Position numbers and translations under genes: made by a program
Shown here: piece by piece, positions 32,796 through 37,339 of the stretch
Layout: each line of letters begins with the position of its first letter
Numbering within the stretch: position 1 is the first letter of the stretch
Assembly: GCA_029820295.1 (NCBI GenBank)
Contig: JALGVA010000033.1
Span: 35,748 to 74,194 of the forward strand
Source: Candidatus Zipacnadia bacterium
GTDB taxonomy: Bacteria; Armatimonadota; Zipacnadia; Zipacnadales; UBA5352
Reading direction: 5' to 3'
Length of the DNA: 38,447 nucleotides
Notes under the pieces: generated by a model
Database searches by the model: none
Told to the model about the DNA's origin: nothing
The model's input: only the letters and a program-made list of their open reading frames with translations

Positions 32796-32820
32796 TCGCC
32801 GGGCGAGGAGTGGGATCGCG

Positions 32821-33465
32821 ATGCCCGGAGTGCTGTCGCGCCTGAAGAGCCATCTGGTGACGGTGGCCGCACGCAAGCCCAGCGGCTTCCTGGGGCGCTT
32901 CATCTACGGCACGCTCGCCTCCGCCGACAGCCTCGGCCGCACCGCGATCGAGCGCCTGCAGCCGCAGCCCGATGACCGCTACCTCGAGATCGGCCAGGGC
33001 GGCGGCCTCTTGCTGCGGCGCGTCCTCGAGACGGTCGAGTTCGGCGCGGGCATCGATCACAGCCCGGACATGGCGAAGCTGGCGGTGCGCAACAATCACG
33101 CGGCGGCGCAGGAGGGGCGGGCGCAGATCGTCGTCGGCGACGCGGCCCGTCTGCCGTGGGGGGAGGCGCAGTTCACCTGCTGCGCCTGCGTCGCGACCTT
33201 CCTGTTCTTCCCCGATCCGGACGCCGCGCTGGAGGAGATGTACCGCGTTCTGCGTCCGGGCGGACGCGTGGTCATCATCACGCCCGCAAGCCGGGCGCCG
33301 ACCTTCGTGCGGTCACTGCAGTCGGCCGATGACGAGGGCCCCAGGCTCTACTCGCAGGACGAGTTCGCAGATATGCTGGACGACGCGGGCTTCGCGAACA
33401 TCGAGGTCGATCTCACGGCGAAGCGGCTGATAGCCTACGCGGAGGTGCGCAGGCTGGCGGCGTAG
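32821..33465 (+). CDS. Class I SAM-dependent methyltransferase
   Basis: 214 residues. Motif I is YLEIGQGGG (54-62), the acidic ribose-binding residue follows in AGIDHSPDM, and VVGDAARLPW marks the adenine-side loop. The late EEMYRVLRPGGRVVIITP is typical of the Methyltransf_11 group. It lies 25 bases after the PIG-L gene with GAGGAG in between. It ends 12 bases from the converging restriction-like module. Whether it methylates oxygen, nitrogen or carbon cannot be read from the sequence. Confidence 0.88.
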   Translation: MPGVLSRLKSHLVTVAARKPSGFLGRFIYGTLASADSLGRTAIERLQPQPDDRYLEIGQGGGLLLRRVLETVEFGAGIDHSPDMAKLAVRNNHAAAQEGRAQIVVGDAARLPWGEAQFTCCACVATFLFFPDPDAALEEMYRVLRPGGRVVIITPASRAPTFVRSLQSADDEGPRLYSQDEFADMLDDAGFANIEVDLTAKRLIAYAEVRRLAA

Positions 33466-33477
33466 GCACGCCACGGC

Positions 33478-33927
33478 CTACCGAAAGAGGTCCCGATGGG
33501 CGGCCGCGATGCCCACAGCCTCGATCTGGCGGCCAGTGCACCGAAAGAGAACCACGTCGGCAGGACGACGCTGCGGTAGAGGCCCGCCGAAACAGATGCC
33601 CACGATTACTGCGTCGAGCGGCTGCCCAGCCATCGCGGCGAGGCGACCAAGGTCGTCGCGGTACCGCGCGTCGGTGGCAATCATGCGGACTTTTGCCACA
33701 TCCGGCTCACAGTACTCGGGCTTCGACTCGAGGATGACCACGCACCCGTTGCGAACCGCGAGGATGTCCGGGATGACTGCGCCCTCGGACTTCGACGTAC
33801 CCCCGCTCGGGCGCAAGCGCAGGCCGCCCTGTGTCCCCGGAACGTGCACACTCAGGACGCACCAGCCGAGGGCATCCAGCCACGCTGCCACGCTTCGGGT
33901 GACGTCCTCCTCGCGCATGGCCGCCAT
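33478..33927 (-). CDS. Small PD-(D/E)xK nuclease-like protein
   Basis: 149 residues. It has a helix with acidic residues at the N-terminus (MREEDVTRSVAAWLDALGW), then VIPDILAVRNGCVVILESKPEY. That gives Asp54, Glu67 and Lys69, the classical PD-x(n)-E-x-K spacing of restriction-type nucleases. Upstream, a glycine/serine loop with GLRLRPSGGTSKSEG resembles the DNA-contact loop of short single-domain nucleases. Its ATG overlaps the stop of the 384-residue gene by one base (TGATG), so both are translated together. It may be the cutting subunit, a Vsr-like or accessory nuclease, or one half of a heterodimeric restriction enzyme. Nuclease fold is likely; role is inference. Confidence 0.7.
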   Translation of the reverse strand: MAAMREEDVTRSVAAWLDALGWCVLSVHVPGTQGGLRLRPSGGTSKSEGAVIPDILAVRNGCVVILESKPEYCEPDVAKVRMIATDARYRDDLGRLAAMAGQPLDAVIVGICFGGPLPQRRPADVVLFRCTGRQIEAVGIAAAHRDLFR

Positions 33928-35081
33928 CAGATGACGATCCCGTCACTGAAGACGATCATGTCCGCGAACGCACAGAAGGTCCGTATCTCCTTCTGCTTGG
34001 TGTAGCGGCAGCCCTCGCGCAGGTGCAGCGAGTACACGCGACTGAGGTTGGCTTCGTCCGCCTCGAGGCACAGTGGACAGTCGCGCTCATAGAAACGCTG
34101 GGCCTTGCCGACCATCCTCGACATGGACACGTGCGGCATGTGCAGCACGAGATTGCGGTAGCGGTGCTGGCGGGTGGGGCCGTTGCGGCACCGCAGGTAG
34201 TCGAGGGCGATGAGCGCGCCCGCATAGGGATCGCTGCGGAAGTCGCGCGTGCCCGCGTGGTAGACCAGGCTCTGCTCGCGCTCGCGGAGGTGGTCCGGGA
34301 CGCGCGGAATCCATACTCCGCTGGCTTCGCGAGCCCACTGTCGCAGGCTGTTGAGTCCGCTGATCGTCTCGCATGAGGTCAGCGGCGACCATACGCGCGT
34401 GCCGCCCCCGCGGTCGTGGAACCACCGCCACATGCGTGCCTCGTGCTGAGCGTAGAACTCGGTGTAGACCATCTGGCTGAACGGTTCGTTGTCGAGGTAG
34501 TGCTGCACGGCGAGATCAACGAACTGCCAGAGCTGCTGGATGCGGGGTTCTCCTGCGGCTGGCAGGCAGTGCCCGCCCGACTCGCAGAGCAAGCGCCCGT
34601 GAGCAGGATCGCCACGGCTCTTGTCAGCAGGCCATATGAACCCAAGTGCAGGAACGCCGTGGAAACGGGACATGTGAAGAAGCACCTGGAAGACCTGCGG
34701 GTTGTAAAGGTCCCAGCGGCCTCCGGTGCGCCGCGTGACCCACTTGCGTTCAGGGAAGAGATAGGCGAAAGGTACCCCGAATTCGACCGAAGCAGCCACG
34801 CGCGCAATCCGCTGGAAGCAGTCATGCCCGGAGGGGGCTTCCGCAGAGAACTCTGCACCGACGATGGGCTCCTCGGGCCGGCCCGACGTCACGAGGATGT
34901 CCGGTTTGTCGAGATACAGGATGTCCTGGATCAGCTTCGGGTTCTCTGCGAAACCGTCTCCGCGATCCTGAATCTGGGCGAACTCGCAGCGGTAGTCGCG
35001 CAAGCACGTGTGCTCAACAAGCAACTCGGCCGAAGTACGAGCTTCGCCGAACCAGACGGTGAACGTGGGCCGAACCGGCAT
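33927..35081 (-). CDS. Probable restriction-type protein with PD...ExS motif and C-terminal Cys4 cluster
   Basis: 384 residues, not a family I can name. The segment KPDILVTSGRPEEPIVGAEFS gives Asp61 and Glu77-x-Ser79, a PD...ExS variant of the PD-(D/E)xK core. BamHI and BglII also lack the Lys. EAPSGHDCFQRIARVAASVEFGVPFAYLFPE follows. The middle is rich in Trp and aromatic residues. The C-terminus has Cys335, Cys338, Cys358 and Cys370 (CPLC...C...C), a probable zinc site. It lies six bases after the DNA methyltransferase stop and is coupled to the small nuclease gene. A DNA-cleaving or target-recognising role in a restriction-modification module is inferred from this context. Confidence 0.55.
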   Translation of the reverse strand: MPVRPTFTVWFGEARTSAELLVEHTCLRDYRCEFAQIQDRGDGFAENPKLIQDILYLDKPDILVTSGRPEEPIVGAEFSAEAPSGHDCFQRIARVAASVEFGVPFAYLFPERKWVTRRTGGRWDLYNPQVFQVLLHMSRFHGVPALGFIWPADKSRGDPAHGRLLCESGGHCLPAAGEPRIQQLWQFVDLAVQHYLDNEPFSQMVYTEFYAQHEARMWRWFHDRGGGTRVWSPLTSCETISGLNSLRQWAREASGVWIPRVPDHLREREQSLVYHAGTRDFRSDPYAGALIALDYLRCRNGPTRQHRYRNLVLHMPHVSMSRMVGKAQRFYERDCPLCLEADEANLSRVYSLHLREGCRYTKQKEIRTFCAFADMIVFSDGIVI

Positions 35082-35087
35082 GGCTTC

Positions 35088-35885
35088 CTACCCCCCAGAG
35101 AGGAGTCGTGTCGGTGCCTTTCCTATCTCGGCGACGGCCAGCTCGCAGTACTCCTCGCTGATTTCGTAGCCGACACCGAAACGTCCTGCATTCCGAGCCG
35201 CGACCAAGGTGCTTCCCGTCCCGACGAAGGGATCAAGCACGGTGTCTCCCGGATAGGAGAAGAGGTAGATAAGTCGTTCGGGCAACTCCATGGGGAACGG
35301 TGCGGGGTGTCCCTTCGTCTGCGAAACGGGCAGTTCCCAAACGCTCCAGGAAACAGCCTTGATGAACTCTTCCGACAACTGACACTCCCGTGGAGGGTCG
35401 AATTGCCCCTCGCGCTGGAAGACCAGTATGTACTCGTGTTGGATGTTGATTGCTGCGTAGCATGGGTACGGGTTGTCCTTGAGGAACTGAGTGGTTCCGC
35501 GCTGCCACAGGCCCTGCGTGCCCTTGGGTTTGGTCCAGATGAACTCCTTGCGCAGCGTGTAGCCGTGGGCGCCGAAGACCTCGATGCTGTCGGCGGGGAT
35601 GTGCTTGAGTTCACCGTGGGAGACGCGCGTCCCGATGACCCAACAGAGGAACCGTCCCGGAGCCAGCACGCGCTTGGACTCGGCCGCCACGAGGTGCAGT
35701 TGGGCCAAGTAATCCTCATATGACTGCCCAAGCCCAATCTGGCCGCTGTTGCGGTAGTTCTTGATGTCCCAATATGGAGGACTGGTCACGACCAACTGCA
35801 CGCTCGCACGTTCGAGCGCCGCCATGTTGCGGGCGTCTCCGCAGTACAATCGAATGCTGTCATCTTCGTAGAATGGCTTGTTCAT
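35088..35885 (-). CDS. Site-specific DNA methyltransferase, N6-adenine/N4-cytosine beta-type
   Basis: 265 residues. Motif IV TSPPYWD (SPPY 35-38) lies near the N-terminus. The SAM-binding motif I DPFVGTGST (218-226) is near the C-terminus, the circular order of beta-class enzymes; SPPY is common in N4-cytosine enzymes but also occurs in adenine ones. A 35-residue region after DNPYPCYAAINIQHEYILVF is the likely target recognition part. I start it at MNKPFYEDDSIRLYCGDAR, the usual family opening. An ATG at 35975 would add 30 residues and overlap the GH4 stop as ATGA; that is possible. It heads the three-gene module. The codons are less GC-rich than the neighbours, which points to acquisition. 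Confidence 0.9.
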   Translation of the reverse strand: MNKPFYEDDSIRLYCGDARNMAALERASVQLVVTSPPYWDIKNYRNSGQIGLGQSYEDYLAQLHLVAAESKRVLAPGRFLCWVIGTRVSHGELKHIPADSIEVFGAHGYTLRKEFIWTKPKGTQGLWQRGTTQFLKDNPYPCYAAINIQHEYILVFQREGQFDPPRECQLSEEFIKAVSWSVWELPVSQTKGHPAPFPMELPERLIYLFSYPGDTVLDPFVGTGSTLVAARNAGRFGVGYEISEEYCELAVAEIGKAPTRLLSGG

Positions 35886-35971
35886 CGAATCACTCTGCCA
35901 CCATCGGTCTATCAAGGTCTCCCGCCGATCCCAGTCTACCACACGCAGGGAGTGGGGAGGAAGGCCAGCGC

Positions 35972-37339
35972 TCATGCGAACTGCGGCAGCAGGTCCGCGG
36001 AGGCGGCCAGCAGCTCGTCAACCATCGCGACCGTGCGGTCGGGCGGGATCGACATCTCGTCGAGCAGGCAGGCCTGCACCACCAGGTTGCGGTCGCCGGT
36101 GACCGCCGCGTCCGCCACCAGCTCCTGCCAGACGATGCGCTTCTCCAGGATGCCCTTGAGCACCGGCGGCGCCTCACCCATCTGCAGGCCACGCACCCCA
36201 CCGAAGTCGGTCACGGCCTCGACCTCCAGCAGCGCGTGCGCCGGCAGGTTGCGCACGCAGCCGCCGTTGGGGATGTTCGCCACGCACACCTCACGTCGGC
36301 CGGTGGCGATGGCGCTGATTACCCGCCCCATCGCCTCGCCCAGCAGCGGGTCCGAGGGCGCCGTGGGCAGCGAGGCGCTGGCCACGAGCTCGCTGTACTC
36401 GGCCATGAACCGCTCGCGCACCTCCGGGCCCGGCGGCTCGGCCGAGGGCAGCTCGGTGGGCGCATGCGCCCAGCGCCTGTGCGCATCCTCGGCCATGTCG
36501 TAGGGCAGGTCGTCGAGACTGCGGCACTGCGCCGCCCACGGATAGAACTCGATGATGTGGTCGTCCTGCGGATAGAGGATCTGGTAGCCGTAGGCCTGCG
36601 ACAGCTCGGCGGCCATGCGCCGGCCCTCGGACGCCTCGCGCTCGGCGACGCGCCGCCTCAGCTCGGGGTAGACGTCACGCCCGCGGTTCAGCACGCGCGT
36701 GAGCCAGTAGTAGTGGTTGGTGCCGACCCACGAGCAGGATAGCTCGTGCGGCGAGACCTCAAGGATCTCGGCGGCGTAGCGGATGCCCGCCTGCACGCCG
36801 TGGCAGATGCCGATCACGTTCACGCCGGTGTACTTGACCATCGCCCGGCACAGCACCGCCATCGGGTTCGAGTGATTGAACAGGATGGCGTGCGGCGCGC
36901 GCTCCTCCAGCGCGCGGCAGATCTCGATGTAGGCCGGCACCGCGCGCAGGCCCATCATCATCCCCGCCGGGCCGCAGGTGTCCCCCACCACCTGCTGGAT
37001 GCCGTACTTCGCGGGGATGCGGATGTCGGCGGCGTGGTAGCGCGAGGCGTAGACGCGCGAGGTCACCTCCGCGCCCGAGCCGCCAATGGAGGAGATGGCG
37101 AAGTCGACGCCATCGACCGCGTCGGCAAGGTCGTCCGAGGCGCGCACCGAGCAGCCGGTCCCCGACTCGGCGGCCAGCTCGCCCAGCCGCGCGGCCATCA
37201 CCTCGACCTTGGGCAGGTCGATGTCGTAGAGTACGATCTCCGAGCCGGCCAGCTCCTCGCGCATGAGCAGCTCGGGCACCGCGTAGCGGAAGTAGAGGCT
37301 CCCGCCCCCCAGGCAGACGATCTTCCTCGCGTCGGGCAT
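35972..37339 (-). CDS. Family 4 glycoside hydrolase (NAD- and metal-dependent)
   Basis: 455 residues. GH4 enzymes cleave alpha- or beta-glycosides by redox chemistry at C3 with NAD and Mn. The NAD site is CLGGGSLYF (9-17). FNHSNPMAVLCRA (155-165) is the substrate segment; the metal ligands are Cys179 in GICHG and His209 in GTNHYYW. GDTCGPAGMMMGLRAVP is another family marker. The sugar could be a phosphorylated glucoside, a galactoside or a glucuronide. The ATG at 37339 has GAGG eight bases upstream. A longer GTG start at 37357 would overlap the nitrilase stop and lacks a ribosome site. It lies 10 bases after the nitrilase gene. Confidence 0.92.
   Translation of the reverse strand: MPDARKIVCLGGGSLYFRYAVPELLMREELAGSEIVLYDIDLPKVEVMAARLGELAAESGTGCSVRASDDLADAVDGVDFAISSIGGSGAEVTSRVYASRYHAADIRIPAKYGIQQVVGDTCGPAGMMMGLRAVPAYIEICRALEERAPHAILFNHSNPMAVLCRAMVKYTGVNVIGICHGVQAGIRYAAEILEVSPHELSCSWVGTNHYYWLTRVLNRGRDVYPELRRRVAEREASEGRRMAAELSQAYGYQILYPQDDHIIEFYPWAAQCRSLDDLPYDMAEDAHRRWAHAPTELPSAEPPGPEVRERFMAEYSELVASASLPTAPSDPLLGEAMGRVISAIATGRREVCVANIPNGGCVRNLPAHALLEVEAVTDFGGVRGLQMGEAPPVLKGILEKRIVWQELVADAAVTGDRNLVVQACLLDEMSIPPDRTVAMVDELLAASADLLPQFA

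Follow-up and report, generated by a model that had tools for sequence, protein, structure and literature searches.

We identified, in the window (the whole 38,447-nucleotide stretch of Candidatus Zipacnadia DNA analysed here), a three-gene module that is very probably a Type II restriction-modification system with a heterodimeric restriction enzyme of the Type IIT (Type IIS-like) kind. A methyltransferase (M), a predicted large restriction subunit (A) and a predicted small catalytic subunit (B) are encoded by three intact open reading frames on the minus strand, in the gene order M-A-B, within a block that is specific to the lineage:

35088..35975, minus strand: M, beta-class N4-cytosine/N6-adenine DNA methyltransferase (295-aa ORF; PF01555, PADLOC MTase_II, motif order)
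33927..35081, minus strand: A, predicted large restriction subunit (384 aa; PADLOC PDLC03392, BsmI profile and fold match)
33478..33927, minus strand: B, predicted small catalytic subunit (149 aa; PD-(D/E)XK, D54..E67-S-K69)
32796..35971: lineage-specific block comprising the trio together with a Methyltransf_11 gene, flanked by GH4 and PIG-L genes

M and A are separated by 6 bases, and the stop codon of A and the start codon of B share one base (TGATG). The coordinates, the lengths of A and B and the 6 and -1 base spacing given in a preliminary description agree with these frames, and the residues it singled out, D61, E77 and S79 of A and D54, E67 and K69 of B, are all present in the window proteins.

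The large subunit resembles the N-terminal part of the restriction enzyme BsmI (PDB 9f38, 9ezd, 9ez5, 9ez7). A contains an N-terminal PD-(D/E)XK domain with D61..E77-x-S79 and Q90; across six homologues, D61, E77 and Q90 are invariant and position 79 is either S or C. All six homologues match the PADLOC profile PDLC03392, 'Type II nicking endonuclease' (best E 8.4e-9). Compared with the PDB, a profile of the six sequences gave BsmI as its sole match (E 0.0022), over the catalytic stretch, where PD..E77-x-S of A aligns with PD..E109-x-C of BsmI; by hhalign, the same stretch aligned with a BsmI homologue from a Leptotrichia plasmid (E 4.3e-5). The absence of a lysine from the catalytic site is common to A, with its E-x-S/C, and the E-x-C site in the N-terminal part of BsmI. 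The plasmid homologue, WP_018450723.1 of Leptotrichia shahii (plasmid JCM16776p1, L063:5737-7779), is annotated 'hypothetical protein' and adjoins a DNA adenine methylase. It is a full-length BsmI homologue of 680 aa (E 6e-184 to BsmI), and shares the PD..E-x-C stretch with A but is a single chain.

By template-free AlphaFold2, A was modelled with a mean pLDDT of 65, the N-terminal half being the better part and the C-terminal half of low confidence. With Foldseek, the model matched BsmI at E 3.8e-11, against 8.9e-3 for the next unrelated match; by VIA, BsmI scored Z 15.6 over 298 aligned residues, with residues 4-384 of the model lying on residues 1-424 of BsmI, and the next match scored Z 6.4. 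AlphaFold2 had been trained before the BsmI entries became public, in 2025. The preliminary description had made its reading of the module depend on a nuclease fold in the 384-residue protein, and the model shows such a fold, with BsmI as its match. We infer that the C-terminal half carries most of the DNA recognition. The four C-terminal cysteines reported earlier are present in the window protein, but they do not form a conserved Cys4 motif: C370 is missing from the most distant relative and C338 from every relative, for which reason a zinc-finger reading of A was rejected.

The small subunit was modelled by AlphaFold2 with a pLDDT of 90.5 and a pTM of 0.87, and its model has a PD-(D/E)XK nuclease fold. 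The best VIA match is again BsmI, here residues 465-656 (Z 10.2, 138 residues aligned), a stretch outside the match of A. Other PD-(D/E)XK proteins scored Z 8.8 and below, including EndoMS (Z 8.4), FokI (Z 7.2), Hjc (Z 6.3) and the small subunit of BspD6I (2p14, Z 6.2), and the fold lead of BsmI over them is modest. Across six homologues of B, residues D54, E67, S68, D76 and K79 are kept; K69 is a lysine in five of the six and a tyrosine in the most distant, from Candidatus Falkowbacteria. The ESK motif of B resembles the C-terminal ESK site of BsmI. No significant sequence similarity was found between B and the BsmI C-terminal domain, and the B half of the case thus rests on fold, position and motif. 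With its frame intact and its catalytic residues kept, B is very unlikely to be the pseudogene remnant that had been considered earlier.

That A matches the N-terminal part of BsmI and B its C-terminal domain suggests a BsmI-like enzyme divided over two chains. An improbable alternative is that A needs no partner and is by itself a complete Type II enzyme, either monomeric or transiently homodimeric; B would then be an accessory nuclease or one without any relation to A, such as a nuclease for mismatch or branched-DNA repair of damage caused by M. It draws on the fold likeness of B to EndoMS and Hjc noted above and on a weak similarity of the B homologues to archaeal Hjc in Pfam (best 2.7e-4), but the best structural match of B is the second catalytic domain of the very protein whose first part best matches A, and those relatives of A that are known cut both strands only with the help of a second catalytic site. 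Searched against Pfam and NCBIfam at E values up to 1, B had no Vsr match, which further disfavours a mismatch nuclease; a Vsr or mismatch reading of B was rejected for want of a family match and since BsmI outscores the folds of EndoMS and Hjc. Of the roles proposed for the small protein in the preliminary description, the mismatch-type accessory nuclease and the defence effector are not favoured.

The heterodimeric reading can be set against enzymes of known organization. BsmI is one chain of 676 residues, whereas the window has two genes of 384 and 149 residues. Identity to BsmI in the structural alignments is ~12%, and specificity need not be common to both. BsmI entry 9ez7 ('nicking top') carries E109V, and 9ezd ('bottom nicking') carries E546V in the ESK motif (wild-type numbering), which assigns bottom-strand cutting to the N-terminal site and top-strand cutting to the C-terminal site; this assignment was read from the PDB entry titles and mutations. 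Site recognition and bottom-strand nicking in BtsI belong to the large subunit, and its small subunit, inactive alone, supplies the top-strand site (PMC2909958). BtsI, BsrDI and BspD6I are all heterodimeric, each with a large subunit that nicks and a small, catalytic one (PMC2909958; PMC4081073), and a 2014 review grouped such enzymes as Type IIT, with small subunits that lack specificity and single-chain forms that are fusions of ancestral heterodimers (PMC4081073). The kind of system is thus already known, and the earlier remark that no named system has exactly this set does not amount to novelty.

Compared by description, A and B are predicted to resemble BtsI and BsrDI, in which a large, site-recognising, bottom-nicking subunit pairs with a small top-strand subunit; the BtsI subunits measure about 38 kDa (computed from concentrations in PMC2909958) and about 19 kDa. 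BtsI differs from the window module in having two separate methyltransferases, against one. R.BspD6I/BstNBI likewise combines a large nicking subunit with a small catalytic subunit, the fold of which B resembles; its large subunit (604 aa), however, cuts the top strand (PMC4081073), the opposite of the prediction for A, and was absent among the listed matches of A.

The BsmI strand assignment, together with the division of labour in BtsI, leads us to read A and B as a heterodimeric Type IIS/IIT enzyme. We infer that A would bind the recognition sequence and use D61/E77-x-S79, in its N-terminal domain, to cut the bottom strand, and that B, having no sequence specificity of its own, would dock on A and cut the top strand with D54/E67/K69; M would methylate the recognition site in host DNA. 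Strand assignment, division of labour, complex formation and restriction activity are all drawn by analogy with these enzymes. By the same analogy, A without B is predicted to act as a natural nickase of the bottom strand, perhaps with a new specificity, and if so it would be a useful tool. The module adds a divergent two-chain relative of BsmI from Armatimonadota and Patescibacteria, and it lends support to a view already published, in which the same parts are arranged either as a single-chain Type IIT enzyme or as a heterodimer.

Homologues of A were found in 5 of 291 genomes of the same phylum, that of the window and four others, at identities to the window protein of 65, 53, 47 and 45% (three of the A-bearing genomes are also in the GTDB contig collection). 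All four relatives have homologues of M, A and B on one strand and in this order, indicating that the genes form a conserved unit rather than a chance grouping. Outside the phylum, A occurs at 31% identity in a Candidatus Falkowbacteria genome with B directly after it, flanked by a D12-class adenine methyltransferase (PF02086, 4.9e-34) and an N6_N4-class methyltransferase (PF01555, 2.3e-24); none of 379 other Patescibacteria genomes carried A. A and B are encoded separately and side by side at all six loci, that of the window included. Adjacency that is kept down to 31% identity, across phyla and beside different methyltransferases, argues against A acting alone. A genome search for the trio, proposed in the preliminary description, thus recovered it in four other Armatimonadota and A-B also in Falkowbacteria; its suggestion that the small protein is the second half of a heterodimeric cutter gains from this adjacency in five other genomes as well as from the matches to the two halves of BsmI.

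In the closest relative of A (65% identity; L014:8285-9439), a TAG codon interrupts the frame after residue 348 of 384, and the M and B frames at this locus are open; the restriction subunit therefore looks damaged, beside an intact methyltransferase. Were the window module, too, no more than a degenerate or inactive relic of a restriction system of this kind, this stop codon would be its precedent; we consider this very unlikely for the window, where all frames are intact and both the catalytic residues and the overlap of the A and B genes are kept.

The Falkowbacteria module has features of its own. Between the D12 methyltransferase and A lies a gene for a 421-aa protein (L021:4719-5981) without any Pfam match, the C-terminal part of which contains VDILLLHR...ATVMELKKER, a D..E-x-K nuclease-like pattern; judged by this pattern, the module may hold a third nuclease. 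The module is also carried by IMGVR_UViG_2711768769_000001 (L022 / L042), the presence on an IMG/VR contig meaning that this copy is classed as viral or proviral by IMG/VR. This sole IMG/VR contig found is the Falkowbacteria sequence itself, and no plasmid or phage relatives of the window's A or of the Falkowbacteria A were found.

The methyltransferase was assigned to the beta type in the preliminary description, and this is borne out by its match to PF01555 (E 4.8e-39) and by its motif order, motif IV (TSPPYWD) preceding motif I (DPFVGTGS); it also matches PADLOC MTase_II (3.4e-58). A motif IV of the form TSPPY(W) points to N4-methylcytosine, and TSPPYW in M suggests the same product here. 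The M proteins of the relatives align from about codon 31, and the true start is probably at this codon (35885), leaving about 265 aa; with this start, the apparent overlap of M with the GH4 gene disappears. A homologue of M (76-62% identity) heads the module in all four Armatimonadota relatives.

The unusual point of the module is that a single methyltransferase is linked to it, one fewer than expected. As a rule, though not an absolute one, both strands have their methyltransferase in Type IIT systems, either as two enzymes or as a fused pair (PMC4081073). One linked methyltransferase was counted at four loci, those of the window and of three of the four Armatimonadota relatives; the remaining relative (L016) has a fusion of two methyltransferase domains, and Falkowbacteria (L021) has two methyltransferases. 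In the fusion (L016:3941-6130), a 730-aa two-domain protein heads the A-B pair, and motif I precedes motif IV in its second domain.

A single linked methyltransferase for a presumably asymmetric site also favours a different view of the whole module, as a defence or nuclease module in which no restriction-modification takes place and, for example, M guards a toxic effector or the nuclease is methylation-dependent (Type IV-like). We regard this as highly improbable, since both by fold and by nearest named relatives A falls among the restriction or nicking enzymes of Type II, M stands first in the Armatimonadota modules, and two methyltransferases lie beside the Falkowbacteria copy.

For the restriction-modification system that we favour, two explanations offer themselves: a site sufficiently pseudo-palindromic for a single methyltransferase, or a second methyltransferase encoded elsewhere. 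The genome of the window has 15 PF01555 matches. With the second domain of the L016 fusion as query, many partial methyltransferase matches were found in the five genomes searched, the best being a 407-aa methyltransferase ORF on contig C293 of the window's genome that resembles this domain; genomes G259 and G263 had no full-length match as good, and no second methyltransferase in trans was consistent across the five genomes. We hold it possible, though doubtful, that the module is a compact Type IIT system with a heterodimeric enzyme of new specificity, and that one methyltransferase of the N4-cytosine type is its only guard. Should one methyltransferase suffice, the site would be pseudo-palindromic or otherwise unusual, such that one enzyme could protect it on both strands, and the fused pair in L016 would represent an older state or a gain. 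The single linked gene raises a clear and testable question, the protection of an asymmetric site.

Composition and gene content at the insertion site support acquisition of the trio at a variable slot. The GC fractions of M, A and B are 0.598, 0.639 and 0.676, and the GC3 of the trio is 0.75-0.81, against 0.85-0.95 in seven neighbouring genes, in keeping with the lower GC than in the flanks described earlier. Two relatives in the family of the window organism (G267 and G265) lack M, A, B and the Methyltransf_11 gene between GH4 and PIG-L: in G267 (L065), no more than 290 bp and one small ORF separate the GH4 match from the PIG-L match, and in G265 (L067), a different gene takes this place. 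Lower GC3 and the missing trio at this slot in two relatives make the module look acquired, and the mobile origin put forward in the preliminary description is supported on both counts. Flanking repeats that might indicate an insertion mechanism were sought, and the search gave only short imperfect ones, none of them convincing. The slot between GH4 and PIG-L is variable in the family (window:32796-35971; L065:6880-7169; L067:8260-9106), and the ORF that occupies it in G265 (L067:8260-9106) is, judged by eye, aminoglycoside N-acetyltransferase-like.
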